Positions 1 through 17,535 of a stretch of DNA of 20,190 nucleotides are shown piece after piece. The stretch is from the IMG/VR virus record IMGVR_UViG_3300035701_002583, positions 1 to 20,190 of that record; one strand, written 5' to 3'. The stretch's first letter is position 1. Each line of letters starts with the position of its first letter. The notes beneath the pieces were generated by a model. The model did no database searches. It had not been told where the DNA came from and was given only the letters and a program-made list of their open reading frames with translations. The DNA comes from a virus. The translations under genes and the position numbers were made by a program.

Positions 1-908
1 ATGGTCCCCCAGGATTACCTGGATCATCTGGTACGAGTGGCACATCAGGTTCAAGTGGCTCAAGCGGAACATTTGGAACATCCGGAACGTCGGGTATAAG
101 TGGATCAAGTGGATCAAGTGGAACATCTGGAACATCTGGAACGTCTGGAACGTCTGGAACGTCTGGAACGTCTGGAACGTCTGGATCATCAGGGGTTGGA
201 ACATCCGGAACATCCGGAACATCTGGAGAACAAGGAATTGATGGACCCCCAGGATTACCCGGATCGTCTGGCACATCAGGTTCAAGCGGTTCAAGTGGAA
301 CATTTGGAACATCCGGAACATCCGGAACATCCGGAACATCTGGAACATCTGGAACATCTGGTTCTTCAGGCTCATCCGGAACAAGTGGTTCTTCAGGATC
401 ATATGGAACATCCGGAACATCCGGATCATCAGGTTCATCAGGAGTTGGAACGTCTGGAACATCTGGAGAACAAGGAATTGATGGACCACCAGGATTACCG
501 GGATCATCTGGTACGAGTGGAACATCAGGATCGTCTGGAACTTCTGGTCAAGATGGAACAAATTTTGGAACATCCGGAACATCTGGAACATCAGGATCAA
601 GTGGATCTTCAGGAACATCAGGAACATCTGGAACATCTGGAACAAGAGGAACATCTGGAACGTCTGGTTCTAGCGGATCTTCAGGTACAAGTGGAACATC
701 CGGTTCATCAGGATCAAGTGGAACATCGGGTACAAGTGGTTCGTCAGGTAGTTCTGGAACATCTGGAATTACAACTGATTTTGTAACAAATACTTGTGAT
801 GTTTGGGCAAGTGTACCCATAGTACTATGTATTGCGACATTAACACAAGCCGAATATAATGCAATTGGAATAAAAGATCCAAATACGCTTTATGTTATTG
901 TAGGCTAA
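1..908 (+). CDS. Collagen-like Gly-X-Y fibre protein, C-terminal part (5' end outside window)
   Basis: The first complete codon is at base 3, and the frame stays open to TAA at 906-908. No ATG occurs in this frame, so the start lies upstream of the window. About 255 residues are Gly-X-Y triplets, nearly all GTS or GSS, with GPPGLPGSSG anchors encoded at about 3, 243 and 483. The triplet register is broken by a recurring G-V-G and by a GTNF segment, as in other bacterial and phage collagen-like proteins. The tail is non-repetitive, about 48 residues, beginning ITTDFVTNTCDVWASVP and containing LTQAEYNAI..KDPNTLYVIVG. From memory, that type of ending recurs in phage tail fibres. Collagen-like segments usually form rigid trimeric rods, so a virion fibre or adhesin is likely. 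The giant fibre gene starts 18 bases downstream. Reading frame and repeat are certain; the role is inferred. Confidence 0.88.
   Translation, partial: GPPGLPGSSGTSGTSGSSGSSGTFGTSGTSGISGSSGSSGTSGTSGTSGTSGTSGTSGTSGSSGVGTSGTSGTSGEQGIDGPPGLPGSSGTSGSSGSSGTFGTSGTSGTSGTSGTSGTSGSSGSSGTSGSSGSYGTSGTSGSSGSSGVGTSGTSGEQGIDGPPGLPGSSGTSGTSGSSGTSGQDGTNFGTSGTSGTSGSSGSSGTSGTSGTSGTRGTSGTSGSSGSSGTSGTSGSSGSSGTSGTSGSSGSSGTSGITTDFVTNTCDVWASVPIVLCIATLTQAEYNAIGIKDPNTLYVIVG
3..770 (+). repeat. Collagen-like repeat with 240-base higher-order spacing
   Basis: The basic unit is 9 bases (GGA-ACA-TCT and variants, Gly-Thr-Ser). On top of it an anchor reading atggaccccc aggattacc recurs at 1, 241 and 481, exactly 240 bases (80 residues) apart. 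An upstream gaacaaggaattg leader is seen before the second and third anchors. Content between anchors differs by whole triplets, so the superunit has expanded and contracted in codon-sized steps. Confidence 0.85.
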
Positions 909-926
909 TTTATATATTACTTATAT

Positions 927-3900
927 ATGTCAGGAGATTTTTTATTAGGAACAGATTATCCTCCATCAATATATATGGGAACAACAGGAGTAACAAACAT
1001 CTGGTTCTCCAATACTATTGTATGGCCCAGAACTCCAACGCCAACACAAACACAAACGCCATCAGTAACACCAACAATAACGCCATCACTATCAATATCA
1101 CCAACTCCATTCTTATCTCCATCAATAACGCCAACAACAACTCCAACAACGACTCCATCATTATCCATATCAGCAACACCAACGGTAACTCCATCACTAT
1201 CAATCTCGGCAACACCATCATTATCAATATCAAAAACACCAACAATAACGCCATCGTTATCGATATCAGTAACGCCATCAATAACGCCAACCATAACGTT
1301 ATCGTTATCAATATCAGCAACGCCATCATTATCTATATCAGAAACTCCCTCAATAACTCCAACGATAACGCCGTCATTAAGCATATCTGCAACGCCATCA
1401 TTAAGTATATCTGCAACGCCAACAGTAACGCCGTCATTGAGTATATCTGCAACGCCATCATTATCAATATCAGCAACACCGTCAATGACGCCAACAATAA
1501 CGCCATCATTATCAATTTCTGCAACTCCATCTTTATCGATATCAGCAACGCCATCAACAACTCCAACAGTTACGCCAATAGTAACGCCATCATTAAGTAT
1601 ATCTGCAACGCCATCATTATCTATATCAGAAACTCCAACAATAACACCATCATTATCAATTTCCGCAACGCCATCTTTATCAATATCAGAGACGCCATCG
1701 ATGACGCCAACGGTAACGCCATCATTAAGCATATCTGCAACGCCATCATTAAGCATATCTGCAACGCCATCGATGACGCCAACGGTAACGCCATCATTAA
1801 GTATATCTGCAACGCCATCATTATCAATTTCTGCAACGCCATCAATAACCCCAACAATAACGCCATCATTATCAATTTCTGCAACACCATCCTTGTCAAT
1901 ATCATCAACACCAACGATAACACCATCATTAAGTATATCTGCAACGCCATCATTATCTATATCAGAAACCCCATCAATAACACCAACAGTAACGCCATCA
2001 TTAAGCATATCTGCAACACCATCATTATCAATATCTACAACACCAACTATAACACCATCGTTAAGCATATCGGTAACGCCATCTTTAAGTATATCTGCAA
2101 CGCCAACCGTAACGCCGTCATTAAGTATATCTGCAACACCATCTTTGTCGATATCAGCAACCCCATCAACAACTCCAACAGTAACGCCATCATTAAGTAT
2201 ATCTGCAACTCCATCCTTGTCAATATCAACAACTCCATCAATAACACCAACTGTAACGTCATCATTATCAATATCTGCAACGCCATCATTATCAATATCT
2301 GCAACGCCATCAATAACACCAACAATAACGCCATCATTAAGTATATCTGCAACGCCATCATTATCTATATCAGAAACCCCATCAATAACGCCAACTGTAA
2401 CGCCATCATTAAGTATATCCGCAACGCCATCATTATCTATATCAGCAACACCATCAATGACACCAACCGTAACACCGTCGTTATCGATTTCCGCAACGCC
2501 ATCGTTATCTATATCAGCAACACCATCAATGACACCAACTGTGACGCCATCATTATCAATTTCAGAGACGCCATCATTATCTATTTCTGCAACACCATCA
2601 ATGACCCCAACAGTAACGCCATCACTATCAATATCAGCGACGCCATTTTTATCTCCATCAGTAACACCAACAACAACTCCATCACTATCAATTTCTGCAA
2701 CACCATCATTAAGTATATCCACAACTCCAACAATAACGCCATCATTATCAATTTCAGCAACACCATCATTAAGTATATCTGCAACGCCATCATTATCAGT
2801 ATCGGCAACACCGTCAATAACTCCAACAGTAACGCCATCATTAAGTATATCTGCAACACCATCATTAAGTATATCTGCAACGCCATCAATAACTCCAACA
2901 GTAACGCCATCATTAAGTATATCCGCAACGCCATCATTATCTATATCGGAAACTCCATCAACAACTCCAACAATAACTGTATCAAATACGGTAACGCCAT
3001 CTATGACACCAAGCCCAGCCGCTCCATTTTCAAGCGGATTAGAGGTTTGTTGGAATTTTGATGAAGCGAGCGGTATTTTTTATGATAGTACTGCAACTCA
3101 TGACCTAACAACAACAAATAATGTAGAATATCAAAAATCGGGTATACTTAATTTTAGTGCCAGATTTAACGATAACACGTCATACGCATATGGAGATACT
3201 GGATTAAATTTAACAACATTATCAATATCTACATGGGTTAATGTTACTGGCACCACAGTAAATAGTGAAAGAATAATATATAGTAAAGTTGGAAGTTATT
3301 TAGCAAATAAAGGTGGAGTTAAATTATTAGTTACAGATACTGGATATGTTCAATTTCAAACTTGGAGTGGAAACACTGACACCGTTATACAATCTGACAT
3401 CACAATAAATGACGGAAATTGGCATCATATTGTTATCACATATGATTATTCCACAAGTACTGCTCATCTTTATATAGACGGATCTGAAGACACTAGTAGT
3501 CCGCATATAATGTCAGTAAAACCATATTATGGAGCTGGCGATGCTAATATAACGATAGGTAACCAATACACTCTTACCGATAGCGCTCTTTACGGCTTTC
3601 TTGACGCCACGGCTGTATGGAGTAGAGTATTAACCATTGCCGATGTTGATGCTTTATGGAATAACGGAAATGGAGTTGCTTGTGGAGTAAGAGCAACACC
3701 AACACCAACAGTAACGCCATCATTATCAATATCCGCAACGCCATCATTATCAATATCCGCAACGCCATCAATGACGCCAACAATAACGCCGTCATTATCA
3801 ATATCCGCAACGCCGTCATTATCAATCTCAACAACGCCAACAATAACGCCAACGGTTACCCCATCGTTAAGTATATCAGCAACACCATCCTTATCGATAT

Positions 3901-6900
3901 CAGCAACACCATCAATGACGCCAACCAGAACTCCAAGTTTATCAATATCCGCAACGCCATCATTATCGATTTCTACAACACCATCAATAACGCCAACTGT
4001 TACACCATCATTAAGTATATCTGCAACTCCATCGTTATCAATATCTAAAACACCAACAGTAACGCCATCATTAAGTATTTCAGCAACACCATCCTTATCA
4101 ATATCAGCAACGCCGACAATAACGCCAACTACTACACCATCATTAAGCATATCAGCAACACCATCATTGTCAATATCATCAACTCCATCGATAACGCCAA
4201 CCAAAACCCCGTCATTATCAATATCTAAAACGCCAACTCCTACTCCTTCAGTTCAATTTCCATCATCTGGATTAATTTCATATTGGAATTTTGAAGAAGC
4301 TTCAGGGGTTGTTGTTGATTGTGTTAGTCATTATTCAGGTGTAACGACATCAGTAACATACAGCGCAGCAGGAATAGTTAATCATTGTCTTAGTTATAAT
4401 GGAACAACATCAAAAGTAACAGTAGGTTCTGGCGGAACAGGATTTCCAAAACCAACAACAGCATTTTCACTATCTTTCTGGATTAAAACAACAGATGCAA
4501 CCAGCAATAAAAAGATTGTTTTTGCTAATAGCTTTAATTACGGATTTATCTTATATTATGCGGGAGCAGGAACAGGCTTAGTATCTCTTTTAATTGGTGA
4601 TGGAACGAATACCATAGAAGCGATATGTACTACAAGAGTAGACACAGGTAACTGGACACATGTTGTTTTTACATTTAACGGTACGGACTTTCTTGGATTT
4701 GTAAATAATTCTCAATGTGCCACAGAAACTTGGGCTTACGATGTTGCTTGGACAGATGTTGATGATTGGACATTTATGGCCAATAATTATGGATCAGGAT
4801 TTGTTGTTGGTTCTTTAGATGAATTTGGCGTGTGGAACCGTGCATTAACAACCACAGAAATTTCAATAATTTATAAGGGTGGAAGTGGATTTGGATATGA
4901 TTGTGGTGTATCACCAACACCAAGTCCAACACCTACTAGAACCCCATCATTGTCAATATCAGCAACGCCATCAATGACGCCAACCAGAACACCATCGCTA
5001 TCAATATCTGCAACATCTTCTCTACCAGCAGGAAGCGCACTTCCAACGCCATCAATAACGCCGACCACAACTCCGTCACTATCAATATCACCAACCAGAA
5101 CTCCGTCACTATCAATATCTAAAACGCCATCAATAACACCAACTAGAACTCCATCACTATCATTACCTTTTGGCGGTAACATATACTATGTCGCGACTGA
5201 CGGACTTAACACCAATCCAGGTACATTTGCAGAACCATGGGCCACTTGGGAATATGGATTTAATCAAATTTCAGCGGGAGATCTCTTATATATAAGGGGT
5301 GGTACATATACTCCAACAAGTTATGTTACAGTATCATCAAGGAATTGTGCAGTGGCAGTTAGTGGTAAAGATGGTTCTTCTGGTAGTAAATATCAGGTGT
5401 TTGCTTATCCTGATGAAACGCCAATTTTAGATTGCAGAAATGTAACCGGAAGTAATGAAAGAATAGGTATATTAATTGTCGATTGTAGTTATTGGTATTT
5501 AAAAGGATTAGAAATAACAAGAGTAGATCAGCCAGTAGCTGGGGGCGTTGGCGGTCAAGGTATTTTTATCTGGGGAATTAATGCTGCAGAACATAATACA
5601 ATAGAAAATTGTAAAGCATATGTTAATGGTGGCCCCGGAATGGGTACTAGAGACTGGGTTAACGAAACTCTTTTCTTGAATTGTGATTGTTATGATAACT
5701 GGGATGCATATTCAGATACGCCTGGCGGTAATTCAGATGGTTTTGATGTTGGATATTCTAACGATATTATAAGATTCACAGGATGTAGAGTATGGCATAA
5801 TGGTGATGACGGGTTTGATATGTATTGTCCTAGTGGCTGGGATAGTACTGTTTATCTAACTAATTGTTGGGCATGGCATCAAGGATATGCCCCAGATGAA
5901 AGTGGAGGTGGTGACGGTGGTGGTTTTAAATTAGGTACAGGTACAGGACTTCAATCTGATGGTATTATAAGACGATATCTATATAATTGTATTGCATATG
6001 ATAACTTAGCTAACGGTTTTGATCAGAATTCCGGTAATATGAAAACAGTTATATATAACAGTATTGCTTATGCAAACGGAACAAGAGGTTATGATTTTCA
6101 TTGGGAAAATCAATATGATGTTTTTATAAATAACACAAGTTATGACAATGGCTCTGCTGATGCATTTCTTTCAAATACGACTCAAACTACCAATAGCTGG
6201 CAAAATGGTATAACGGTTACCGATGCTGATTTTGTAAGTGTGGTTTCTCAGCTTTCATCAACCAGAGAATCAGATGGATCATTACCATTAATGACTTTCC
6301 TTCATCTTGTTTCAGGATCCGATTTAAAATATGCTGGTACAGTAGTTGCCGGATTAGTTTATGATGGAGATGGCGCACTATATAACGATCCACCATCTAT
6401 AGGCCCATTTGAATATGGCGTAAACATTACGCCATCGATGACGCCAACTAGAACTCCGTCATTGTCAATACCTGTAACGCCATCATTGACTCCAACTAGA
6501 ACTCCGTCATTGTCAATACCTGTAACGCCATCAATAACGCCGACTAGAACCCCATCATTATCAATAACATCATCAATAACGCCAACTGTAACACCATCGT
6601 TATCGACATCAAAAACACCAACGGTTACACCGTCACTATCAATTTCAGCAACCCCATCATTATCAATATCAAAAACACCAACTAGAACTCCCTCATTATC
6701 GATATCTAAAACTCCATCAATAACGCCAAGTACAGCTGGCGATCCATTTTCAGGAGCATTAGAAGCTTGTTGGAATTTTGAAGAAGCAAGTGGTACTATT
6801 TATGATAGCACAACAAATAATCATGATTTAACAACAGCAAGTTATGTGAGTTATCATCAAGCAGGTAAAGTCGGTAGTTATTGTGTTGGATTTAGTAATA

Positions 6901-8618
6901 GTGCCGGTTATTTGCAAGGAGACACAGGACTAGATCTTACAACAATAACATTATCTTTTTGGATTAAGTTTATTGGTACAGGTAATGTGGCGTGTACAAT
7001 ATATAATAAAACCGATCCAGCTAACTCTAAAGGGGGTGTTAGGATGGATGCTGGTGCTAGTGGAGTTGTATCGTTTACAACTATTACTACTGGAGGTGAT
7101 AACAATACTATTAGTTCTGATTCTGCATTAAATGATGAAAATTGGCACCATATTGTTGCATCTTATAACGATGCAACTCAGGAAGCTAATTTATATGTTG
7201 ATAATGTGGGTGTTAATGCAAATCCGCAGATTTTTACAAATCGTCCTGATTATGGCGTGGGTGGCGTTAATATACAAATAGGTGGTGACCCTTCCGTTCC
7301 GGATGCTATTCCAGGATATATAGATGCATTCGGTATATGGAGTGCAGCATTAAATGCAACTGATGTTGCAACATTATGGAATGGAGGAAGCGGACTTGTT
7401 TGTTCTGTACCTGATGTAACTCCATCACCAACTAGAACACCATCATTGTCAATAACAAAAACGCCATCGTTGTCAATATCTAAAACACCATCATTATCTC
7501 CGCCAGCCCCGACGCCATCATTGTCAATATCAGCAACGCCATCATTGTCAATATCTAAAACGCCATCATCATCTCCGCCAGCACCGACGCCATCATTGTC
7601 AATATCAGCAACACCATCGTTGTCGATATCTAAAACGCCATCATCATCTCCACCAGCGCCAACGCCATCATTGTCAATATCTAAAACGCCATCAATAACG
7701 CCAAGTAGAACGCCATCGATAACTTCAACGCAACCAAGTAGTGAATATAGTTTTTATCTAACATCATATGCTTCAGCGGCATTAGCTTGTGGTGATGCGC
7801 CATCGCCAAACGGCACAAAATGGTTACCTGTTGGCCATCCTGTACCAGTAATTGGTGATACATTTTACAATGATGCCGCTTGCACAACGCCATTTGCTGG
7901 TGATAATGGTTATTATTATGTTAGAACACCGGCCAGTGGAGAATACGCAATAAAAGTAGCAGTTAATGGTGTTGCTGCTGATGTTTCGGATTGTACTTAT
8001 CCAACACCAACTCCAACAAGAACACAAACTCCATCAAGAACGCCGACACCATCATTGTCAATATCTAGAACGCCATCATTATCTCCACCAGCAGCAACAC
8101 CTTCATTGTCAATATCTATAACACCTTCATTATCAATATCTAGAACACCTTCATTATCTCCGCCAGCAGCAACGCCGTCATTGTCAATATCTAGAACGCC
8201 ATCGCTGTCAATATCTAGAACACCATCCAAAACACCATCAATGACGCCAAGTAGAACACCATCACTATCAATATCGGTTACGCCATCCATAAGTCTTATT
8301 GTATCACCAAGTAGAACACCAACGCCAACAAGAACACCAACGCCATCAACAGCATATATGACATGGTTTGTAAGTGTTAACACTTTAGCCACGATACTTC
8401 TTGCTTGTGGAGATGCTCGTGATGGTACCAAGTATAGTGCTGTTGGTAGAACGCCAGCTAATCTAACTACGCTTTATAACGATACGGGATTAACAAGTGT
8501 ATATATTGCCGGTGGCACTCATCCAGGTTATATATCATTTACTCTTAGCAGCGGTGGAGATTTTTATTATGGAAATCAGAACAGCAGTGGAACAATATCA
8601 GGTAACGGGCTTTGTTAA
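927..8618 (+). CDS. Giant modular Ser/Thr/Pro-rich fibre/adhesin with LamG and beta-helix domains
   Basis: This 2,563-residue protein has no signal peptide. Its N-terminus contains IYMGTTGVTNIWFSNTIVWP, resembling the short YLG..EV.KIY..D..VW motif of phage tail/fibre N-termini. TP/LSIS-repeat linkers then alternate with folded domains: LamG/concanavalin-like at about 704-922, 1113-1327 and 1942-2161 (each opening with WNF[DE]EASG and carrying a NWHHIV or NWTHVV strand); a right-handed parallel beta-helix at about 1416-1833 (YYVATDGLNTNPGT opening, then IENC/LYNC/VIYNS-type rungs, as in pectate-lyase-like and DUF1565 proteins); and two homologous modules at about 2272-2358 and 2477-2563 sharing ACGD, GTK, VG, YND and a final Cys. 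The LamG and beta-helix domains suggest carbohydrate binding or depolymerisation. It is probably a virion-attached receptor-binding fibre. The start is ATG after ttacttatat, with no Shine-Dalgarno sequence. A displayed prophage adhesin is the alternative. Confidence 0.9.
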   Translation: MSGDFLLGTDYPPSIYMGTTGVTNIWFSNTIVWPRTPTPTQTQTPSVTPTITPSLSISPTPFLSPSITPTTTPTTTPSLSISATPTVTPSLSISATPSLSISKTPTITPSLSISVTPSITPTITLSLSISATPSLSISETPSITPTITPSLSISATPSLSISATPTVTPSLSISATPSLSISATPSMTPTITPSLSISATPSLSISATPSTTPTVTPIVTPSLSISATPSLSISETPTITPSLSISATPSLSISETPSMTPTVTPSLSISATPSLSISATPSMTPTVTPSLSISATPSLSISATPSITPTITPSLSISATPSLSISSTPTITPSLSISATPSLSISETPSITPTVTPSLSISATPSLSISTTPTITPSLSISVTPSLSISATPTVTPSLSISATPSLSISATPSTTPTVTPSLSISATPSLSISTTPSITPTVTSSLSISATPSLSISATPSITPTITPSLSISATPSLSISETPSITPTVTPSLSISATPSLSISATPSMTPTVTPSLSISATPSLSISATPSMTPTVTPSLSISETPSLSISATPSMTPTVTPSLSISATPFLSPSVTPTTTPSLSISATPSLSISTTPTITPSLSISATPSLSISATPSLSVSATPSITPTVTPSLSISATPSLSISATPSITPTVTPSLSISATPSLSISETPSTTPTITVSNTVTPSMTPSPAAPFSSGLEVCWNFDEASGIFYDSTATHDLTTTNNVEYQKSGILNFSARFNDNTSYAYGDTGLNLTTLSISTWVNVTGTTVNSERIIYSKVGSYLANKGGVKLLVTDTGYVQFQTWSGNTDTVIQSDITINDGNWHHIVITYDYSTSTAHLYIDGSEDTSSPHIMSVKPYYGAGDANITIGNQYTLTDSALYGFLDATAVWSRVLTIADVDALWNNGNGVACGVRATPTPTVTPSLSISATPSLSISATPSMTPTITPSLSISATPSLSISTTPTITPTVTPSLSISATPSLSISATPSMTPTRTPSLSISATPSLSISTTPSITPTVTPSLSISATPSLSISKTPTVTPSLSISATPSLSISATPTITPTTTPSLSISATPSLSISSTPSITPTKTPSLSISKTPTPTPSVQFPSSGLISYWNFEEASGVVVDCVSHYSGVTTSVTYSAAGIVNHCLSYNGTTSKVTVGSGGTGFPKPTTAFSLSFWIKTTDATSNKKIVFANSFNYGFILYYAGAGTGLVSLLIGDGTNTIEAICTTRVDTGNWTHVVFTFNGTDFLGFVNNSQCATETWAYDVAWTDVDDWTFMANNYGSGFVVGSLDEFGVWNRALTTTEISIIYKGGSGFGYDCGVSPTPSPTPTRTPSLSISATPSMTPTRTPSLSISATSSLPAGSALPTPSITPTTTPSLSISPTRTPSLSISKTPSITPTRTPSLSLPFGGNIYYVATDGLNTNPGTFAEPWATWEYGFNQISAGDLLYIRGGTYTPTSYVTVSSRNCAVAVSGKDGSSGSKYQVFAYPDETPILDCRNVTGSNERIGILIVDCSYWYLKGLEITRVDQPVAGGVGGQGIFIWGINAAEHNTIENCKAYVNGGPGMGTRDWVNETLFLNCDCYDNWDAYSDTPGGNSDGFDVGYSNDIIRFTGCRVWHNGDDGFDMYCPSGWDSTVYLTNCWAWHQGYAPDESGGGDGGGFKLGTGTGLQSDGIIRRYLYNCIAYDNLANGFDQNSGNMKTVIYNSIAYANGTRGYDFHWENQYDVFINNTSYDNGSADAFLSNTTQTTNSWQNGITVTDADFVSVVSQLSSTRESDGSLPLMTFLHLVSGSDLKYAGTVVAGLVYDGDGALYNDPPSIGPFEYGVNITPSMTPTRTPSLSIPVTPSLTPTRTPSLSIPVTPSITPTRTPSLSITSSITPTVTPSLSTSKTPTVTPSLSISATPSLSISKTPTRTPSLSISKTPSITPSTAGDPFSGALEACWNFEEASGTIYDSTTNNHDLTTASYVSYHQAGKVGSYCVGFSNSAGYLQGDTGLDLTTITLSFWIKFIGTGNVACTIYNKTDPANSKGGVRMDAGASGVVSFTTITTGGDNNTISSDSALNDENWHHIVASYNDATQEANLYVDNVGVNANPQIFTNRPDYGVGGVNIQIGGDPSVPDAIPGYIDAFGIWSAALNATDVATLWNGGSGLVCSVPDVTPSPTRTPSLSITKTPSLSISKTPSLSPPAPTPSLSISATPSLSISKTPSSSPPAPTPSLSISATPSLSISKTPSSSPPAPTPSLSISKTPSITPSRTPSITSTQPSSEYSFYLTSYASAALACGDAPSPNGTKWLPVGHPVPVIGDTFYNDAACTTPFAGDNGYYYVRTPASGEYAIKVAVNGVAADVSDCTYPTPTPTRTQTPSRTPTPSLSISRTPSLSPPAATPSLSISITPSLSISRTPSLSPPAATPSLSISRTPSLSISRTPSKTPSMTPSRTPSLSISVTPSISLIVSPSRTPTPTRTPTPSTAYMTWFVSVNTLATILLACGDARDGTKYSAVGRTPANLTTLYNDTGLTSVYIAGGTHPGYISFTLSSGGDFYYGNQNSSGTISGNGLC
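1030..3010 (+). repeat. TPSLSISA/TPSxTPTxTP repeat block 1
   Basis: The 8-residue unit TPSLSISA (24 bases) is often doubled and alternates with TPS[IMT]TPT[VIT], giving a common 24-residue, 72-base superunit. LSIS is written in two main ways, ttatcaatatca and ttaagtatatct, that use different serine codon families. The block spans residues about 35-695 of the giant fibre and is probably an extended or O-glycosylated stalk. Confidence 0.9.
3688..4255 (+). repeat. TPSLSISA repeat block 2
   Basis: The same TPSLSISA/TPSxTPTxTP units link the first and second LamG-like domains of the giant fibre. TPTRTP and TPTKTP variants appear here, adding basic residues absent from most of block 1. Confidence 0.85.
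4908..5165 (+). repeat. TPxxTPSLSIS repeat block 3
   Basis: A short linker between the second LamG-like domain and the beta-helix domain. It is rich in TPTRTPSLSIS and includes one non-repeat insertion, SSLPAGSALP, at about 5018-5047. Confidence 0.8.
6428..6738 (+). repeat. TPTRTPSLSI repeat block 4
   Basis: Linker between the beta-helix and the third LamG-like domain. It contains near-perfect tandem copies of TPTRTPSLSIPVTPS at about 6443-6535, the most regular and probably youngest duplication in the later blocks. Confidence 0.8.
7408..7737 (+). repeat. TPSLSISKTPSSSPPAP repeat block 5
   Basis: Linker after the third LamG-like domain. A unit of about 75-80 bases encoding PSLSISATPSLSISKTPSSSPPAPT is repeated almost identically near 7515-7590 and 7590-7665. 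It is richer in proline and lysine than block 1. Confidence 0.8.
8000..8352 (+). repeat. TPSLSISRTPSLSPPAA repeat block 6
   Basis: Linker between the two related C-terminal modules of the giant fibre. Units are TPSLSISRTPSLSPPAA and TPSRTP. Arginine replaces the alanine or lysine seen in other blocks, so each linker has its own subtype. Confidence 0.8.
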
Positions 8619-8674
8619 AAAATAATAGGTATAAATTAATTGATTATCTTGCTTTATTTCTGTATTATTATGCA

Positions 8675-9904
8675 ATGAAAATACTTTTAGTACAGAAGTT
8701 CTCAATTATTGAACCACTCGGTTTGATGGTAATTGGTAAAGCAATGATGGATAAAGGATATGATGTGGATTATTATCTATATAGTGGTAATCACATACCA
8801 GTTTCTCTTTTTCAACACAGAAAATATGATTTATTTGGATTTAGTACATACACAGGCAATCATCTTGAAGTATACGAAGCTTGTAAAAAATTAAAAGATT
8901 ATAAAATAAAAACGGCAATCGGCGGGCCGCACGCATCGTTTTTTTATGGTGAATGTAAACAATATGCCGACTATGTGTTTCGAGGAGAGAGTGTTTTATC
9001 GTTTCCAAATATGGACGACACAAAAGTATATCCAATGGTTGATCCGGATTTACTATTACCTGATAGAGAAAGATTTTATAATCAATCACCCATACATAAA
9101 AATAATCGAATAAAAAACATGATGACGTCTTTTGGTTGTCCATTCAGTTGTACATACTGTTATAATTCCCTTTATAAAGAGATATATCCCGATGGTAAGA
9201 TACGATTAAGAACGGTTGATTCGGTAATTGAGGAAGCAAATTCATTGGATGCCGAATTAATATATTTCCAAGATGATTTTTTTGGATATAATAAGAAATG
9301 GTTAAAAGAATTTAACGAAAAATGGGGTAAAAGACCATATCATGCTCAAATGAGAATTGAAACTCTTGACGACGAGAAGATTGATCTATTAGTTGAGAGT
9401 GGATGTATCGGAGCAACTATTGCAATCGAAACGTTCAGTGAGGAATATAGAGAAACAGTTCTTAAAAGAAAAATGAGTAATAGAAAAATAATTGATAATT
9501 GTAAAAAATTATTAAATTCAGGTATAAAATTAAGAACAGAACAGATGTTGGGACTTCCAAACACAACATTTGAAGATGAGTTGAATTTATTAAAAATGAA
9601 TTGTGAGATAAATCCAACAATTGCATGGACAAGTATATTTCAGCCATATCGTGGTACTGAATTGGGTGAATATTGTGTTAATAACAATCTTTATGAAGGA
9701 AATAATGAAGATGTTGACGAATCATTTTTTAATACCACAGTATTAAAATTTCCAACAGAACGAAAAAAACAAATAGAAAAATTACAAAAAATATTTGCGT
9801 TATGTACACATATTCCAAATGGATGGGAATATGCTGAACAAATAATAAAATATGATAACGATAATTTAAAAGAACATCTTTATTCTATATTATATAGAAC
9901 ATAA
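8675..9904 (+). CDS. Radical SAM protein with B12-binding-like N-terminal domain
   Basis: Starting at the ATG at 8675 the product has 409 residues and begins MKILLVQKFSIIEPLGLMVIG, a typical Rossmann start. The same frame extends upstream to a TTG at 8612, but that would overlap the fibre stop and add an unrelated leader. The N-terminal third has the fold signature of B12-binding radical SAM enzymes (DLFGFSTYTGN, then AIGGPHASFFYGE and YVFRGE), but no DxHxxG cobalamin motif is visible. The [4Fe-4S] motif is C155-x3-C159-x2-C162 in GCPFSCTYC. Downstream YFQDDFFG, IAIETFSEE and EQMLGLPNTTFED are usual TIM-barrel landmarks of the family. Reaction unknown; as first gene of the modification operon it may methylate or rearrange a sugar or peptide. 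Confidence 0.88.
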   Translation: MKILLVQKFSIIEPLGLMVIGKAMMDKGYDVDYYLYSGNHIPVSLFQHRKYDLFGFSTYTGNHLEVYEACKKLKDYKIKTAIGGPHASFFYGECKQYADYVFRGESVLSFPNMDDTKVYPMVDPDLLLPDRERFYNQSPIHKNNRIKNMMTSFGCPFSCTYCYNSLYKEIYPDGKIRLRTVDSVIEEANSLDAELIYFQDDFFGYNKKWLKEFNEKWGKRPYHAQMRIETLDDEKIDLLVESGCIGATIAIETFSEEYRETVLKRKMSNRKIIDNCKKLLNSGIKLRTEQMLGLPNTTFEDELNLLKMNCEINPTIAWTSIFQPYRGTELGEYCVNNNLYEGNNEDVDESFFNTTVLKFPTERKKQIEKLQKIFALCTHIPNGWEYAEQIIKYDNDNLKEHLYSILYRT

Positions 9905-9907
9905 TAT

Positions 9908-12634
9908 ATGAAAATATTAGCACACACATCATTTATTGGAACAACAGGATATGCTAACCATGCAAGATCATTCTTTTGCTCATTAAACAAATATCACACT
10001 GTTAAAGTACGAAATTTAACAATTGGTGATGGATGGCACGGAATGAATAAAACGCCGCACAATGATGAACCATATATTACAAAAGAAATGAAGGATATGT
10101 TAATTCTTCAAACATTATTTAATAACGATAAGACAAGAACAGATTATCCAATATATGGATATAAGGGTGATTTTAAACCAGATGTTCATATCATTTTAAA
10201 TGATATGGATAATTATTATTTTTATGAAAATTACGATGGGTATAAAATAGGGTTTTGCGTTTATGAATCAACGAGATATCCTGAGAATTTTTTTCAGCGT
10301 TTATTATATTTCGATGAAATGTGGGTGCCAACACAATGGCAATTTGATTCCCTGGCTGACCAAGGATATCCCAGAGAAAAAATTCACATTGTAACAGAAG
10401 GTGTGGATATTGAAACTTTTAAGCCAATAGATGTTATTCCAAAAAAAGATAAATTTAGGTTTTTATATTTTGGTAGATGGGATTATAGGAAATCCACAAC
10501 GGAAGTTCTTAGAACGTTCGGAGAAACATTTAAATATAATCCAAATGTTGAATTAATTGCATCAGTTGAAAATCCCTATCCTTATGATGACACCAGATCT
10601 ACAGAAGATAGAATGAACAAATTTAATATTCATTATGATAATATAAAATATATTAAATTTACTCCAAGAGAAGAATATGTCAAATATCTACAAGAAGGTG
10701 ATGTTTTTGTTTCATGCGCTCGAAGTGAAGGATGGAACTTACCATTAATCGAAGCCATGGCATGTGGTACGCCATCAATATATTCAAATTGGGGCGGACA
10801 ACTTCAATTTGCTAGAAATAAGGGTCTTCCGGTTAAAATCTCTCACATTAGAAGTGCCAACATCGGTGATAAAGAGGTCGGTGGAGAATATTGTGAGCCC
10901 GATTTTATTGATCTATCCAAACAAATGAAAGATATATATGAAAATTATGATGATTGTAAAAAAATTGCAGTAGAAGAATCAAAATTAATTCATAAAGAAT
11001 TCAATTGGGATAAAGTAGCGAGAGATGCAAGTAATATATTAGAAAAAAAAGATAGAGAATTTGTGTTTGTTACATGTGGGGATTTATCATATATGCCAAC
11101 AATTCAAAAATTAGTCGAATCTATAAACGAATTTTCCAAAAATAAAGTTTTAGTATATGGCATAGATTGCGAGGTTCCATTTGAGTCACCAAATATGATT
11201 AAACAAACATTAAATACGCCTAAACACTCTAAATATGATAAATGGTACTGGAAGCACTATGCTTGCCTAGCGTCGTTAAATGAGAACCATGAACGTTTTA
11301 TATGGATTGATGGAGATGCCATTGTAAATTATAATATTGATACTATTGGGAAATATTTTCCACAGATTGAAAACTATCCATTATCTGATATTCATATTCC
11401 AGAAGAATTTTCTGGATATTATACAGATGAAAACGGTAATAATCAGATCCAACTATTTAATGAAAATCTATGTAAATTGTGGAACATAAACATTTCAAAG
11501 CCATATATGCATGTTTGTATGTTCACTTATAATAAAGAATGTAGATGGTGGTTTAACGAAATAGTCAAGGAATACTTGACAGTTGATTTAAGGTTATATG
11601 AAACATATTTCTTATGGAATGATGAGAGTATTTGTAATGGATTAAGATGGAAATATGGGTTTAAAAAACATTTACCATTATCTAATTTTGACACATCAGG
11701 ATATGATGGGGACGACGGATTTACTAAAGGAGTTATAAATCAATTTTATAAATTCTGGAACATTCAAGGTCCTTATAATTTCAATAAAGTTTATGGATAC
11801 CAATATATTCCCGAAGATAAAAATCAAATATTATATTTTCATGGTAATAAGGATATTGAGATTTCAGATAAAATGATTGAATTTATTAAATTCAAAAGAG
11901 ATAATAGTTTTTATCAATCTGAATATTTTTACACCGATCTATATAAACTCACAAATCTAGGAGAAATAAAAGATCTTGAAGGTGGTACAATGTCTGTTGC
12001 TTCAACATATGACTGGGAGCATGCGGTTTATCATGAGGTATATAATTTAAAAGATTATTATCTCAATCGAGAAAAAAGAATTCATAATGGCGATATTGTA
12101 ATTGATTTAGGAGCTAATATTGGAGTATTTACCAGATGGGCATATAAAGAAGGAGCAGCTAAAGTAATAGCATTCGAACCCGATAAAAGATATTTTGAAT
12201 TACTCAAATTAAATTCAGATCCCCGTTCAATATTGTTTAATGCCGCAATGAGTGATTCAATGGGGATAACCACGTTATACGAAAGTGACCATCTTGGGGG
12301 ATCAAACATTTTAGGAATACCAGGATGTTTAAAAAGTTATATTGTTAGAATATATACAATGGATTATCTTTTTGAATCGGGGCTAATCGACAAAATTGAT
12401 TTTTTAAAAATTGACATTGAAGGAGCAGAACATCAGGTCTTCAGGGGAATTTCTGATGATAATCTAAAGAAAATAAAATCAATAGGAATGGAATATCACA
12501 ATTGGGGCGGCCCCGGGTATACTGAAGAAGAAAGAACAAACCTTATTAAAAGATTAAACGGATTAGGATTCAATTCTCATCTTCTATTTTTGGGAACAAA
12601 TCAAGTATTACAAATGTTATATTTTTGGAAATGA
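9908..12634 (+). CDS. Three-domain fusion: GT-B glycosyltransferase, GT-A glycosyltransferase, FkbM methyltransferase
   Basis: A 908-residue protein. Residues about 1-380 look like a GT4-type glycosyltransferase: N-terminal loop GTTGYANHARS, LYFGRWDYRKS, and EGWNLPLIEAMACGTPS near 272-290 as the nucleotide-sugar site. Residues about 385-680 form a second transferase starting FVFVTCGDLSYMP, with the metal-binding DxD motif D468-G-D470 in FIWIDGDA, as in GT-A enzymes. Residues about 700-905 are an FkbM-type SAM methyltransferase (VIDLGANIGVF near 731, IAFEPD, then FLKIDIEGAEHQV). The protein could add two sugars and O-methylate the product. It starts 3 bases after the radical SAM gene, with no Shine-Dalgarno sequence, and shares the ATGA overlap with the next gene. 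Donors and acceptor cannot be read from sequence. Confidence 0.88.
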   Translation: MKILAHTSFIGTTGYANHARSFFCSLNKYHTVKVRNLTIGDGWHGMNKTPHNDEPYITKEMKDMLILQTLFNNDKTRTDYPIYGYKGDFKPDVHIILNDMDNYYFYENYDGYKIGFCVYESTRYPENFFQRLLYFDEMWVPTQWQFDSLADQGYPREKIHIVTEGVDIETFKPIDVIPKKDKFRFLYFGRWDYRKSTTEVLRTFGETFKYNPNVELIASVENPYPYDDTRSTEDRMNKFNIHYDNIKYIKFTPREEYVKYLQEGDVFVSCARSEGWNLPLIEAMACGTPSIYSNWGGQLQFARNKGLPVKISHIRSANIGDKEVGGEYCEPDFIDLSKQMKDIYENYDDCKKIAVEESKLIHKEFNWDKVARDASNILEKKDREFVFVTCGDLSYMPTIQKLVESINEFSKNKVLVYGIDCEVPFESPNMIKQTLNTPKHSKYDKWYWKHYACLASLNENHERFIWIDGDAIVNYNIDTIGKYFPQIENYPLSDIHIPEEFSGYYTDENGNNQIQLFNENLCKLWNINISKPYMHVCMFTYNKECRWWFNEIVKEYLTVDLRLYETYFLWNDESICNGLRWKYGFKKHLPLSNFDTSGYDGDDGFTKGVINQFYKFWNIQGPYNFNKVYGYQYIPEDKNQILYFHGNKDIEISDKMIEFIKFKRDNSFYQSEYFYTDLYKLTNLGEIKDLEGGTMSVASTYDWEHAVYHEVYNLKDYYLNREKRIHNGDIVIDLGANIGVFTRWAYKEGAAKVIAFEPDKRYFELLKLNSDPRSILFNAAMSDSMGITTLYESDHLGGSNILGIPGCLKSYIVRIYTMDYLFESGLIDKIDFLKIDIEGAEHQVFRGISDDNLKKIKSIGMEYHNWGGPGYTEEERTNLIKRLNGLGFNSHLLFLGTNQVLQMLYFWK

Positions 12635-13317
12635 AAAACGGAATATTAGACACGTTAGCAAAAAAATATGGAACGGATAAATCATCTGATATCCATGATT
12701 ATTGTGGAAAATATGAAAAATATTTACCATTTGAAAGAGATCAAAGTCTAAAAATAATGGAAATAGGTGTGCTTGAAGGTGGATCTCTTAAAACATGGCA
12801 AGACTATTTTTTGAATTCTCAAATAGTCGGAATTGATATTAATCCTTATTGTAAAGCGTATGAAGAAAATAGAATTAGAATTGAAATTGGTTCGCAAACA
12901 GATAAAGAGTTTTTACTAGAGCTATCTTTAATGTATGGAACATTTGATATGATTATAGATGACGGATCACATCAAAGTAATGATGTAATATATAGTTTTG
13001 AACAGTTGTTCAAGATGGTTAAATCGGGCGGCATATATATTATTGAAGATACGCATACGTCATATTATCCCGAATATGGAGGAGGAAGGTATAAAAAAGG
13101 ATCAACAATTGAATATTTTAAGGGTATAATAGATGAAATAAATTTTTTTGGCGAAGTACTTGAAGTAGTAAATTCTGGAGGTAAAATCGAGAATTTTGTA
13201 TTTCGAAAAGATCAACCCCTTATTGATCAATTTATGAGAAAAGGATACAGTTATATTGGAACGCAAATAGAGTCAATGAATTTTTTAAATAGTATAATTA
13301 TAATCACAAAAAGATAA
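12631..13317 (+). CDS. Class I SAM-dependent methyltransferase (TylF/CmcI-like)
   Basis: From ATG 12631 the product has 228 residues; this ATG overlaps the upstream stop as ATGA, a normal coupled start. An in-frame TTG at 12625 is less likely. LAKKYGTDKSS is typical of the opening of sugar O-methyltransferases near polysaccharide loci. Motif I is IMEIGVLEGGS (residues 42-52), followed by IVGIDINPY with the ribose-binding acid D69. IIDDGSH (D110, D111, H114) and IYIIEDTHTSY match the metal-dependent cephalosporin-hydroxylase/rhamnosyl O-methyltransferase group. The probable substrate is a hydroxyl on a sugar made by neighbouring glycosyltransferases. It overlaps the next start by one base (TAATG). 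Confidence 0.82.
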   Translation: MKNGILDTLAKKYGTDKSSDIHDYCGKYEKYLPFERDQSLKIMEIGVLEGGSLKTWQDYFLNSQIVGIDINPYCKAYEENRIRIEIGSQTDKEFLLELSLMYGTFDMIIDDGSHQSNDVIYSFEQLFKMVKSGGIYIIEDTHTSYYPEYGGGRYKKGSTIEYFKGIIDEINFFGEVLEVVNSGGKIENFVFRKDQPLIDQFMRKGYSYIGTQIESMNFLNSIIIITKR

Positions 13318-15422
13318 TGGCGCGCTTTAACGAGGATATTTTTGTAATAGATTCATGGCCAGATAATGAGTCAAAAGAACGAGATTTAATTAACTTAATT
13401 AATAGGCTTAAAATATATGAGATACCAATTTTACTAACTGGTCACTATCCAATTAACTCTGATATACAAAAAATGGTAGATTATTATCTATATGATAAAA
13501 GCAATCCATTATTAACCATAGATGAATTTCAGGATTTTGGTGTTAATAGCGTTAGATGGACAGATATGGGAAGTTTTCGTGTTGAAAATCATCGAGAATA
13601 TCATCATGACTATGCTATTTGGGAAACAATGAGAAACTCATTTAACTTCTGTAAATTCCTCGGCAAAAAATATATTCATTTTTTGGAATATGATAATTTG
13701 CCACATCCCATACAATATCGTCAGACATTTTTAGAAAGAATTAGAGACGCTGATGTCGTTCTTTATGAATATAATAAAGGATCTATATCAGAAGAAAATC
13801 CATATTGCTCGACATATATTTTTTCTATAAAAACCGATGTTGCTGTCAATGTCATAGATCAAATAAAAACTAAAGATGATTTTTTCCGCAACAAACCCGA
13901 TAAATGGCAACTAGAAAAGAATTTTTTAAATTCGATTATAAAAGTCAGAGGAATGATATTCATTTGTAAATATATTCCAAATTACCACGAATTAAACACA
14001 CAAGCTGTATGGAATAGAGATGGAATGTATAGAAACGGAACAAATCTTCAGATTTATTTAGCCATCGATGACATGGGTGATTTATATTTACATACCATTT
14101 CAGAAAAAGAACAATTAATAGAAGTAGTGTATAAAGATTATATAAAATTTCATAGTCTTTTAAAAAACAGGTATCAGACATTTAATATGGGTAAATACCA
14201 ACAAGGAGAAAGAGTTGTGATATATTATCAGGGTATAGAGATATTATCCGAAAATCTGGAAAAAACCATGGAGGAATTCAGAATTCTAAATAAAATAGTA
14301 AAAAAAACAAATATAATAGAAGAACCGCCAAAAATCAATATTAATTTTGTTGACGGCCCATTTGTAGAAATTTTAGGAAATCAAAATAAATTATATCACA
14401 TACAATTCATTAATCAAAAAACTAATCTCACTGAATTTGAATTAGATTTAAGAACAAATCATTGGGCTAAATGTTCTAAAAAATATTATATTGATTGGTT
14501 AATAAAAATAAAGGGAATTAATAATGATTTCTATTTAGAAAAATTAATGGATTTAAAAGATAAAAGAGTTTTAATTAGCATTGAATCAAAGTCAATTGGA
14601 GACACATTATCATGGTTCCATCAATGTGAATTATTTAGAATAAAGCACAAATGCGCCATTATTTGTTCAACATTTCACAATAATTTATTTAAAGACCAAT
14701 ATTCGGAGATTGAATTTGTTCCGCCCGGCACAACAGTAAATAACATCAATGCTCTTTACAGAGTCGGCGTCTTTTTTAAAAACGGAGATATTGATTATAG
14801 TAAACATCCATCAGATCCAAAAAAAGAGCCGTTAATAAAGATAGCATCAGATATATTAGGATTGGATTATGTTGAAGCAAGACCGTTATTACCTATACTT
14901 ACAACTAAGAAGAAAAAACAAGTTTCTATAGGGACCATTTCGACGGCACAATGCAAATTTTGGAATCGCCCAAATGGATGGGAAGAAGTTGTAAACTATT
15001 TGAAAGAAAGAGGGTATGATGTTTTATTGTTATCAAGTGAAGAAGATGGTTATATGGGTAATAAAAATCCTGGCGGGGTTATAAAAATAAACCCAACGAC
15101 TCTCGGAAAAGTTGCTAATATTATTCAAGAATCTGAGTTGTTTATTGGTATTAGTAGTGGATTGAGTTGGTTGTCATGGGCAACAGGAACTCCCACAATA
15201 ATTATTTCGGGATTTACTGATGATTATATTGAACCACAGGAAGGTATAATAAGAATAATAAACAAAAAAGTTTGTCATGGCTGCTGGGGAAAATACAATT
15301 TCAATCCCGGCGATTGGCAATGGTGTCCGGTTCATAAAGGAACTGATAGGGAATTTGAATGCACTAAAGAAATTTCATCTGAAGAAGTAATTTATAATAT
15401 TAATTTACTTTTAGAATTATAA
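13317..15422 (+). CDS. Glycosyltransferase with autotransporter O-heptosyltransferase-like C-terminal half
   Basis: A 701-residue protein. Residues about 342-701 match my knowledge of the TibC/Aah autotransporter heptosyltransferase family: a small entry domain (NFVDGPFVEILG, then WAKCSKKYYIDWLI), a GT-B/GT9-like core (SIGDTLSW, ISSGLSWLSWATGTPTIIISGF), and a cysteine finger C653-x2-C656-x13-C670-x11-C682 in the CHGCW...WCPVHKG...FEC context, the metal ('iron-finger') motif of that family. Those enzymes transfer heptose to serines of repetitive adhesins. Residues 1-about 330 are an extra domain (IDSWPDNESKERDL, KYIHFLEYDNLPHP) that may be another transferase; I cannot name it. Family members are usually about 400 residues, so this is a fusion. 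Last gene of the overlapping cassette. Sugar donor and acceptor are inferred only. Confidence 0.8.
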   Translation: MARFNEDIFVIDSWPDNESKERDLINLINRLKIYEIPILLTGHYPINSDIQKMVDYYLYDKSNPLLTIDEFQDFGVNSVRWTDMGSFRVENHREYHHDYAIWETMRNSFNFCKFLGKKYIHFLEYDNLPHPIQYRQTFLERIRDADVVLYEYNKGSISEENPYCSTYIFSIKTDVAVNVIDQIKTKDDFFRNKPDKWQLEKNFLNSIIKVRGMIFICKYIPNYHELNTQAVWNRDGMYRNGTNLQIYLAIDDMGDLYLHTISEKEQLIEVVYKDYIKFHSLLKNRYQTFNMGKYQQGERVVIYYQGIEILSENLEKTMEEFRILNKIVKKTNIIEEPPKININFVDGPFVEILGNQNKLYHIQFINQKTNLTEFELDLRTNHWAKCSKKYYIDWLIKIKGINNDFYLEKLMDLKDKRVLISIESKSIGDTLSWFHQCELFRIKHKCAIICSTFHNNLFKDQYSEIEFVPPGTTVNNINALYRVGVFFKNGDIDYSKHPSDPKKEPLIKIASDILGLDYVEARPLLPILTTKKKKQVSIGTISTAQCKFWNRPNGWEEVVNYLKERGYDVLLLSSEEDGYMGNKNPGGVIKINPTTLGKVANIIQESELFIGISSGLSWLSWATGTPTIIISGFTDDYIEPQEGIIRIINKKVCHGCWGKYNFNPGDWQWCPVHKGTDREFECTKEISSEEVIYNINLLLEL

Positions 15423-15480: not shown

Positions 15481-16437
15481 ATGAATGAGTATATAAGATT
15501 ATGTCCTTCTTGTGGAAAAGAAATAAAATATAAAAATAAAAGCCATCGTATTAGAGCAGATATAAAAAATTCAATATGTCAGGAATGTCAACAAAGAAAA
15601 TACCAATCAATTGAAAAATTTATAAGGAATTGTCCTATTTGTGGTAAAGAAATAAAACATAAGAAAAAAATATCTTATGAACGAAGTATTAAAAAAAATC
15701 AATCTTGTTTATTTTGTTATTCTAAAATAGGAGAATATGAAAATAAAATAAATATAAGAAATTGCCCCACATGCGATAAAAAAATAATCTATTCTAACAA
15801 ATATAAATGTAATTATGCTAATTTAAAAAAATCAGAATGTCGCTCTTGTTCAAAATCAGGAGAAAAAGCTCCGTTATATGGAAGAATAGGTGAAAAAAAC
15901 CATAACTTTGGTAAAAAATTGACAGATGAAAGAAAAAAATTAATTTCATTTTCTAATCGTGGTGAAAAAAACCATAACTTTGGAAAAACGCCCCATAATT
16001 TTGGCGTTCCTATGACACTTGAACAAAAATTAAAAATTTCAGAGACAAAAAAAAGTAAACCAAATCCAAGAATAGGAATTCCTCTTTCTGATGAATGTAA
16101 ACAAAAACTGAGATTATCAAAAATAGAACGTTTAAAAAAATGTTATGGGCAATTATCTCCTTTTTATAATCCAAAAGCATGTCAATATTTTAATAATTTA
16201 ATGGAAGAAACAAACACATATATACAACATGCCGAAAATGGCGGTGAATTTTATATTCGTGAATTGGGATATTGGGTTGATGGTTATAATAAAAAAAACA
16301 ATATAATTTATGAATTTGATGAAAAACATCATTTCGACGTATTTGATAACTTAAAGAATAAGGATATACGACGGCAAAAAGAAATTGAAGAATTTTTAAA
16401 TTGTAAATTTATTAGAATAAAATATAACGAAATATAA
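15481..16437 (+). CDS. Free-standing homing-type endonuclease: three Cys4 fingers, NUMOD3, Vsr-like nuclease
   Basis: A 318-residue protein. Three evenly spaced Cys4 zinc fingers occupy residues 8-36 (C8, C11, C33, C36), 51-79 (C51, C54, C76, C79) and 95-123 (C95, C98, C120, C123). Next come two or three NUMOD3-like DNA-binding motifs (APLYGRIGEKNHNFGK, then RGEKNHNFGK). The C-terminal domain (about 255-318) carries YWVDGYN (D267) and IYEFDEKHHFD (E278, D280, H283, H284), matching Vsr-like/EDxHD homing endonucleases and the PD-(D/E)xK fold. It probably cuts an allele lacking the gene. Upstream bases are A-rich with no Shine-Dalgarno sequence. It ends 3 bases before a convergent small gene, consistent with insertion between transcription units. 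Confidence 0.85.
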   Translation: MNEYIRLCPSCGKEIKYKNKSHRIRADIKNSICQECQQRKYQSIEKFIRNCPICGKEIKHKKKISYERSIKKNQSCLFCYSKIGEYENKINIRNCPTCDKKIIYSNKYKCNYANLKKSECRSCSKSGEKAPLYGRIGEKNHNFGKKLTDERKKLISFSNRGEKNHNFGKTPHNFGVPMTLEQKLKISETKKSKPNPRIGIPLSDECKQKLRLSKIERLKKCYGQLSPFYNPKACQYFNNLMEETNTYIQHAENGGEFYIRELGYWVDGYNKKNNIIYEFDEKHHFDVFDNLKNKDIRRQKEIEEFLNCKFIRIKYNEI

Positions 16438-16440
16438 AAT

Positions 16441-16617
16441 TTATTGATGTGTTAATATCTCGTTTAACTTCTCCACAATTTTATTCACGTCTTGTGGGGG
16501 GACTATTGGTGATGGTGCTGGAATAGATTTCACTTCTCCATTTTCTACTATTATAACTCTTGCTGGCTGTTGAGCCGGAGATACTATTGTTTTTTTCTTA
16601 CATCCGCATGGACTCAT
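16441..16617 (-). CDS. Small Cys-rich/Pro-rich 58-residue protein
   Basis: On the minus strand, ATG at 16617-16615 opens 58 codons ending in TAA at 16443-16441. The product begins MSPCGCKKKTIVSPAQQPAR, contains VIIVENGEVKSIPAPSPIVPPQ, and ends with a short amphipathic helix DVNKIVEKLNEILTHQ. CGCKKK near the start resembles the N-terminus of small uncharacterised proteins in Bacteroidetes phages, from memory. It fills the whole gap between a convergent endonuclease gene and a divergent methyltransferase gene, which supports it being real. I do not recognise a function; the CxC could bind metal. Confidence 0.68.
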   Translation of the reverse strand: MSPCGCKKKTIVSPAQQPARVIIVENGEVKSIPAPSPIVPPQDVNKIVEKLNEILTHQ

Positions 16618-16629
16618 TTTAATTTTTCT

Positions 16630-16637
16630 TATAAATA
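16630..16637 (+). promoter_or_regulatory. TATAAATA box, candidate T4-type late promoter
   Basis: The octamer TATAAATA exactly matches the T4 late-promoter -10 consensus. It lies 70 bases upstream of the DNA methyltransferase start, in the divergent gap, and is followed by tttggt as at 18589. In a genome this AT-rich the octamer can occur by chance, and no gp55-like sigma factor is in the window. Confidence 0.4.
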
Positions 16638-16707
16638 TTTTGGTTTTTAATTTATTTTAATGTATCTTTAATCAAAAGTAATTAATTTAACCCCAAAAGT
16701 AAAGTAA

Positions 16708-17352
16708 ATGGATAAAGATTTCATACCAGTAAGAAGTGTTTATAACAGTAATTATGAGGTCATCAAGAACATAATGTCTTTATATGAGATTGATCAATTT
16801 GATCTTGACTGTACATATTCAAGAGGATTATTTTGGAAAAATCTACCAGAGCCTAAAATAAAGACAGATTTGGTTCCAGTAACCGAAGATACAATACGGG
16901 CCGATTCTGAGCATTTGCCATTTGAAAACGAATCAATGAAAAATATAATGTATGATCCGCCGTTCACAATTTCGGGGAAATCATATAAAGAAAATAAAGA
17001 TGGTAGTTCTGTAACCGCTAAAAGATTTCAAGGATATACCACATATGATAAATTAACAACCAATTATTATAACACATTGATTGAACTTTATCGAATTTGT
17101 CAAAAAAATGGGCTTGTAGTGATGAAGCTGATGGATACCGTGAGTGGCGGCAAGAACCATTTTACGCATGTAATGGTTATGAATATGGCAATGAAAATCG
17201 GGTTTTATCCAAGAGATTTATTTGTTTTAGTTGCAAAAATGAGAATTAATAGTTTTGGCGGAAAATGGAACAAACAAGAACATGCACGCAAACATCATTG
17301 CTACTATTGGATCTTTGAAAAAACAACGCCAAGAGTAAAATATTTGTTCTAA
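16708..17352 (+). CDS. DPPF-type DNA methyltransferase (adenine-specific, phage family)
   Basis: A 214-residue protein with catalytic motif IV DPPF at residues 83-86 (NIMYDPPF), the N6-adenine/N4-cytosine form. An early FDLDCTYSRGLFW and IRADSEHLPF supply acidic SAM-site residues. A C-terminal QEHARKHHCYYWIF stretch is, to my memory, characteristic of small phage methyltransferases of this type. There is no separate target-recognition domain and no restriction endonuclease nearby, so it is an orphan enzyme, plausibly protecting phage DNA from host restriction. The leader aaaagtaaagtaaATG has no Shine-Dalgarno sequence. The stop overlaps the minus-strand DUF192 remnant, suggesting that this convergent pairing is ancestral. 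Confidence 0.8.
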   Translation: MDKDFIPVRSVYNSNYEVIKNIMSLYEIDQFDLDCTYSRGLFWKNLPEPKIKTDLVPVTEDTIRADSEHLPFENESMKNIMYDPPFTISGKSYKENKDGSSVTAKRFQGYTTYDKLTTNYYNTLIELYRICQKNGLVVMKLMDTVSGGKNHFTHVMVMNMAMKIGFYPRDLFVLVAKMRINSFGGKWNKQEHARKHHCYYWIFEKTTPRVKYLF

Positions 17353-17535
17353 AGGGATGGCCTTACCGGATTTTGAGGTGCTCCAAGGTACATATTAACT
17401 CGGTCGCCTACTTTCCAATCGCTGGCAGTACCTGCGGGGAATTCTAAGACATGATCAGCCATTCCTGTATATCTGGGTAGGGTCATTTGATGACTGTCAG
17501 GAACGGGACAATTACGATGAATTTGACTTAAAATT
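17349..17535 (-). pseudogene. Truncated DUF192 gene remnant (3' half)
   Basis: Reading the minus strand from about 17525 gives QIHRNCPVPDSHQMTLPRY, then TGMADHVLEFPAGTASDWK and VGDRVNMYLGAPQNPV, ending RPSL and TAG at 17351-17349. This aligns without gaps to residues 66-120 of the intact DUF192 protein at 18223-18585, with about 42 of 55 identical by my count. Upstream the frame meets TAA within a few codons and no start follows; resemblance fades beyond about 17535, so the first half, including the FWMK core, is missing. Conservation of the remaining protein despite about 30% base differences means it diverged as a functional gene and was truncated recently. Confidence 0.85.

Follow-up and report, generated by a model that had tools for sequence, protein, structure and literature searches.

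The window analysed here, the whole 20,190-base virus record IMGVR_UViG_3300035701_002583 (probably a genome fragment), carries on its plus strand the gene of a collagen-like rod, the gene of a 2563-residue fibre and a cassette that encodes, in this order, a radical S-adenosylmethionine (SAM) enzyme, P0004, the methyltransferase P0005 and P0006. In our view this cassette is probably a virion-glycosylation system, in which the TibC-type domain of P0006 would O-glycosylate serines of the rod while the GT-A domain of P0006, P0004 and P0005 would extend and methylate the glycan.

The argument starts from the genomic surroundings of the TibC-type domain. Viral contigs were scanned with an alignment of phage TibC-type domains, and relatives were found in at least 583 viral stretches; 128 loci were used, which fell into 60 clusters at 80% identity, 45 of them flanked by 5 kb or more on each side. 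A Gly-X-Y rod was present within about 10 kb in 38 of these 45 non-redundant phage loci, as against 2 of 28 control loci centred on a terminase gene and comparable in G+C (Fisher p = 3e-11; the control loci were drawn from a single phage lineage and not at random). Forty-six clusters have a rod, and in 17 of them it is the next gene, often at a distance of 46-101 bp. In the reverse test the domain was detected in 22 of 70 records fetched by a GTS/GSS DNA pattern and in none of 43 with GPx rods, a comparison which is confounded by G+C, since this differs between the two sets (the GPx pattern reads the same on both strands and is biased towards high G+C; only records with genuine Gly-X-Y runs were kept for this control). 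With the G+C limited to 0.50 or less the counts were 21/63 and 0/16 (p = 0.004), and with 0.45 or less 16/57 and 0/10 (p = 0.05). With P0010 as the query of an intended neutral control, no more than 3 loci were obtained. The preliminary description of this DNA had placed the modification on the linkers of the giant fibre or, alternatively, on the GTS/GSS collagen rod upstream; it is the rod, although its gene falls outside the positions 927-15422 to which that description was assigned, that the co-occurrence favours as the acceptor, and the relatives of the transferase adjoin repeat fibres, not lipopolysaccharide (LPS) or capsule loci.

The same partnership could be recognized in bacteria. In a class-wide draw of 369 genomes the domain occurred only in two genomes already known, and the survey was narrowed to the methane-oxidiser order (Methylococcales), where 15 of 251 genomes have it. 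At seven loci of the phage-like clade (L449, L451-L454, L456 and L458) the TibC gene and the gene of a secreted GTSGTSG-repeat protein are 12-153 bp apart; at L457 the distance is 91 bp, and L455 has no such protein. In most pairs both genes have the same orientation and the repeat protein comes first, the orientation being different in L457 and L458, and the pair of GTSGTSG protein and TibC gene is present also in a genome from outside the Methylococcales (L118/L450). The GTSGTSG-repeat proteins of the methane oxidisers (L449-L458) are small as well as secreted. At least three loci of the other clade (L460-L462) adjoin autotransporter-type SGG repeat proteins, and in the tree a single branch separates the phage/GTS group from the autotransporter group with a support of 100/98, in which the bootstrap value had not fully settled.

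Together with the limits of the two controls, some further observations weigh against the proposed function. A glycan on the rod is a prediction from the genes. Some TibC loci have no nearby rod, notably the four-member clade of L084, L098, L108 and L109, and 48 of the 70 records with GTS/GSS rods gave no TibC match, though many of these records are fragments, and so the absence of TibC from them is weak evidence. Fibre and glycosyltransferase genes, furthermore, cluster in one variable phage region anyway; a mere clustering of this kind is argued against by the bacterial loci, because there the TibC/GTS pairing exists without a phage fibre region.

P0006 (13317-15422) is a fusion of an N-terminal GT-A-fold glycosyltransferase domain (residues 1-240, 13317-14036) and a TibC/Aah-type O-glycosyltransferase domain (residues 335-701, 14319-15419). 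The latter belongs to the TibC/Aah family: residues 335-696 scored 268.1 bits (cut-off 200) with TIGR04414, the NCBIfam model of autotransporter O-heptosyltransferases (TibC, Aah), and P0006 matched the TibC structure in the PDB (4rap) with an E value of 2.7e-55 and 37% identity. The preliminary description had recognized the TibC/Aah likeness with its Cys4 finger and had proposed a structural comparison with TibC, and both stood up. In the AlphaFold2 model of P0006 (predicted local distance difference test, pLDDT, 83.6) residues 337-701 could be superposed on TibC over 356 residues, covering the beta-barrel and the GT-B core, with a Z score of 40.6 and a root-mean-square deviation (rmsd) of 2.1; with the LPS heptosyltransferases WaaC/WaaF the Z score of the same model was about 19. 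As modelled, the domain thus resembles the protein-modifying TibC more closely than it does WaaC/WaaF. The N-terminal 240 residues of the model adopt a GT-A fold, for which the comparison with mannosylglycerate synthase (2bo7) gave a Z score of 14.7 and an rmsd of 3.2 over 178 residues, and for this reason P0006 appears to hold two transferases in one chain.

The residues required for the activity of TibC, among them the iron ligands Cys339, Cys342, Cys358 and Cys370, have been described (PMC4358343). According to the alignment Asp110, Thr226, Lys230 and Trp305 of TibC correspond to Asp429, Thr543, Lys547 and Trp618 of P0006, Asp429 (codon at 14601-14603) being the equivalent of the catalytic base Asp110; the four cysteines correspond to Cys653, Cys656, Cys670 and Cys682 of a predicted iron finger (15273-15362). 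All these positions were kept in 60 of 60 phage domains. The exception is Arg286 of TibC, which contacts the adenine of ADP-heptose (PMC4358343): its equivalent is Val599 in P0006, and the arginine is absent from 58 of 60 phage domains and present in all seven sequences of the autotransporter clade. Since the arginine is lost in these 58 domains, heptose is unproven as the transferred sugar, and the earlier naming of heptose is weakened for the phage clade. At the position of TibC residue 300, which sets heptose stereoselectivity, P0006 has Ser, as Aah does.

The structural result bears also on another explanation of the cassette, namely that in the course of infection it alters the host surface glycans (LPS or O-chain) to block superinfection and stands beside the fibres because both lie in a shared variable host-recognition region. 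Such a function is the published reading of the glycosyltransferases in the host-recognition clusters of pelagimyophages, aquatic phages in which glycosyltransferase and radical SAM cassettes likewise stand beside tail fibres (PMC7029224), and many GT9 enzymes are LPS heptosyltransferases. The pelagimyophage cassettes are read as modifying the O-chain of the host, whereas here the phage's own rods are the proposed target. We regard a host-directed function of the present cassette as unlikely, considering the closer similarity to TibC than to WaaC/WaaF, the pairing with GTS-repeat genes in bacteria without a phage fibre region, and the fact that the domain accompanies GTS/GSS rods, not GPx rods.

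The rod itself (3-908, its gene truncated at the 5' end by the start of the window) is a collagen-like phage tail fibre, as are the related rods, on account of their Gly-X-Y repeats and their fibre or trimerisation domains. The window rod matches Pfam Collagen (1e-35), Phage_tail_C (6e-12) and a PHROG tail fibre family; it has 84 Gly-X-Y triplets, of which 42 are GTS and 24 GSS, with GPP/GLP patches, and its C-terminal end is the tail tip domain Phage_tail_C. The related rods combine Collagen with Peptidase_S74, the latter, the intramolecular chaperone of trimeric tail fibres, being found in five of six examined. Among the rods near TibC genes GSS makes up 39.6% and GTS 36.0% of the triplets, Ser stands at Y in 79%, and only 1.7% contain proline. 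The collagen triple helix is stabilised by proline and hydroxyproline, and glycosylated threonine can replace them. Since the GTS/GSS rods have almost no proline, a stable triple helix is not assured, and we hypothesize that such rods would be unstable unless they are modified.

Two observations on the rod loci may be added here. Small genes of the 2OG-Fe(II) oxygenase type, one to four in number, precede the cassette by a few kb in 14 of the 60 TibC loci (e.g. L035, L045, L051, L193). In Microcystis phage Mel-JY01 (L030, PP395634.1) a long plus-strand rod reading frame with many GTS/GSS and GPP triplets spans 2-3052; the deposited annotation has at this place minus-strand genes at 1-651 and 739-2298, reading as PEVPRVPLVPELP, which are probably a misannotation.

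The giant fibre (927-8618) is the other candidate acceptor, alone or along with the rod. It contains 86 exact SLSIS copies spelled by 46 different DNA sequences, and a double-repeat SLSIS DNA pattern had 35 matches in the window where 0.00 were expected in shuffles, so the repeats are not due to chance. The richness in SLSIS noted earlier was thus correct, and the spacing of the second repeat had to be amended: TPxxTP occurs 88 times and literal TPxTP not once. Both kinds of repeat form linkers between the other parts of the fibre, namely a beta-helix and three stretches that resemble LamG. The cassette follows the fibre gene directly, and the fibre has hundreds of serines that could serve a family whose member TibC modifies Ser, not Thr (PMC4358343). 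However, none of the TibC loci from the first two viral scans has an SLSIS/TP fibre. Outside the window the SLSIS DNA pattern was found in just two viral contigs, neither record with TibC, and in one of them (L447) a GTS rod stands directly upstream of the SLSIS protein, as in the window. The nearest relatives (L003/L004) keep the whole cassette with a different fibre. Co-occurrence of SLSIS/TP fibres with TibC as a general rule was consequently rejected. The earlier proposal of the linkers as acceptor lost ground by this, and as the true target of the cassette they are rather improbable; they are a possible second acceptor which the co-occurrence does not support, and the SLSIS linkers may be modified here too, though nothing singles them out.

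Returning to the preferred function, the modification of the rod, we turn to the remaining enzymes of the cassette. The radical SAM enzyme (8675-9904; Pfam Radical_SAM 2e-17, B12-binding 2e-12) is encoded in an open reading frame that opens at TTG 8612, and its homologues begin at residue 22, which is ATG 8675 and, judging by this alignment, probably the start of the gene. With this start there is no overlap with the fibre gene; the identities that the preliminary description gave to the genes downstream of the fibre were right, and the overlap at this junction was probably not. A homologue with 82% identity stands in the same place in L002-L004. P0004 (9908-12634) begins with a GT4 glycosyltransferase domain of GT-B fold (residues 1-384, 9908-11059; Pfam Glycos_transf_1, PHROG 2170 glycosyltransferase), the model of which gave a Z score of 33.9 with a chlorella virus glycosyltransferase (3oy2). 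Its middle domain (approximately residues 385-690, 11060-11977), for which the model is confident, has an invariant D468-G469-D470 and may be a GT-A-type transferase, judging from this DGD motif only; in the structural comparison of P0004 the middle domain was absent among the matches listed, all of which were taken by the GT4 domain. The FkbM-type methyltransferase domain (residues 731-865, 12098-12502; Pfam Methyltransf_21) scored 82.8 bits with NCBIfam fkbM_fam (cut-off 37.7). P0005 (12631-13317; PHROG 21658 methyltransferase, 4.6e-32) is a stand-alone SAM methyltransferase, with an open reading frame opening at TTG 12625 and a probable start at ATG 12631.

Of the 60 loci, 21 have a full-length homologue of P0004 and 18 a homologue of the methyltransferase P0005. 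In the isolate Mel-JY01 a 1227-residue protein unites GT4, a P0006-type transferase, a methyltransferase and the TibC domain, and adjoins both a rod gene and a fibre gene; a 2859-residue fusion in L014 has GT4, methyltransferase and TibC domains. These fusions and the conserved gene order argue that the cassette enzymes act jointly on one glycan. According to the model the TibC-type domain of P0006 would put the first sugar on serines, likeliest in the GTS/GSS triplets of the rod at 3-908; the glycan would be lengthened by the GT-A domain of P0006 and by the GT4 and middle domains of P0004, and methylated by the FkbM domain of P0004 and by P0005, and the modified rods would be built into the tail fibre. 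The benefit might be stability of the proline-poor triple helix, solubility and protection; the preliminary description had suggested that the sugars would stiffen the stalk, make it resistant to proteases or hide it from host defences. It is the acceptor, the sugar, the order of the steps and the benefit that we infer. A more far-reaching version, that this widespread clade of phage and bacterial enzymes makes a new kind of glycosylated collagen, in which helices with almost no proline would owe their stability to a sugar on the serine of every GTS/GSS triplet and the donor would be other than ADP-heptose, is put forward tentatively, as the less probable course.

That the cassette modifies some other virion protein (capsid or tail tube) or the phage DNA is very improbable in our estimation. 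Phage-encoded glycosyltransferases of mycobacteriophages are thought to modify structural proteins, the targets being capsid and tail tube C-termini (Freeman 2023, as cited in PMC12619734), and a few rod-less TibC loci adjoin sheath, tube and terminase genes; on the other side stand the strong association with rods and the action of the TibC family on serines of repeat proteins. The account of the mycobacteriophage system in the available portion of PMC12619734 describes neither a TibC-type enzyme nor a collagen rod.

The known activity of the TibC/Aah heptosyltransferases is the transfer of heptose from ADP-heptose to serine, and the enzyme is a dodecamer. The window holds no sugar-nucleotide gene, and a megablast search of the cassette against the phage collection gave zero matches. 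A HldE-like adenylyltransferase occurred in 10 of 50 TibC records and in 6 of 50 controls, none over the cut-off, and a GmhA-like SIS domain in 2 of 50 TibC records, one over the cut-off; a general supply of heptose by the phages was rejected on these counts. In L065, L084 and L108 a HldE-like heptose kinase and an adenylyltransferase are encoded by separate adjacent genes beside the TibC gene, which suggests that a few phages supply heptose locally. In the flanks examined, L084 and L108 have no rod.

The most fitting description of the system is that of a collagen-rod branch within the TibC family. With TibC and Aah it shares the sequence family, the fold with its N-terminal beta-barrel, the iron finger, the catalytic Asp, Thr, Lys and Trp, and a partner rich in repeated serines; it differs from them in the fusion with a GT-A transferase, the loss of Arg286, the separate clade and the nature of the partner, which in phages is a collagen-like rod and not an autotransporter, autotransporter-type repeats standing only beside the other clade. 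Glycosylated collagen-like proteins are represented by Bacillus BclA and by worm collagen with galactosyl-Thr, and the sugar stabilises collagen. The rods resemble these in the Gly-X-Y repeats, in which position Y is mostly taken by a hydroxyl residue; in BclA and worm collagen this residue carries an O-linked sugar. Those proteins have Gly-Pro-Thr triplets and other transferases and the rods described here are nearly free of proline and accompanied by a TibC-type enzyme. Papers on glycosylated collagen-like proteins are cited in PMC3368898.

It should be emphasized that these results link a family of adhesin-glycosylating enzymes to the collagen-like tail rods of hundreds of aquatic phages, and give a concrete and testable substrate to a class of phage glycosyltransferases whose usual interpretation is a modification of the host or of DNA, with the methane-oxidising bacteria as a simple two-gene counterpart. 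If it were true that sugars hold the rods together, collagen stability would be reached by a route other than proline hydroxylation, and the host range and persistence of phages would depend on such a glycan.

Just past the cassette, at 15481-20118, the window encodes a putative NUMOD3 homing endonuclease, an HNH nuclease and two DNA methyltransferases; these nucleases and DNA methyltransferases are not members of the cassette, and most genes of this part share their order with L002-L004. Divergent TibC-type domains are encoded also in the 636-735 kb genomes of huge phages (W02/W03; LR756504, LR756501), and in LR756504 the distance between the TibC gene and a SIS-domain gene is about 27 kb.

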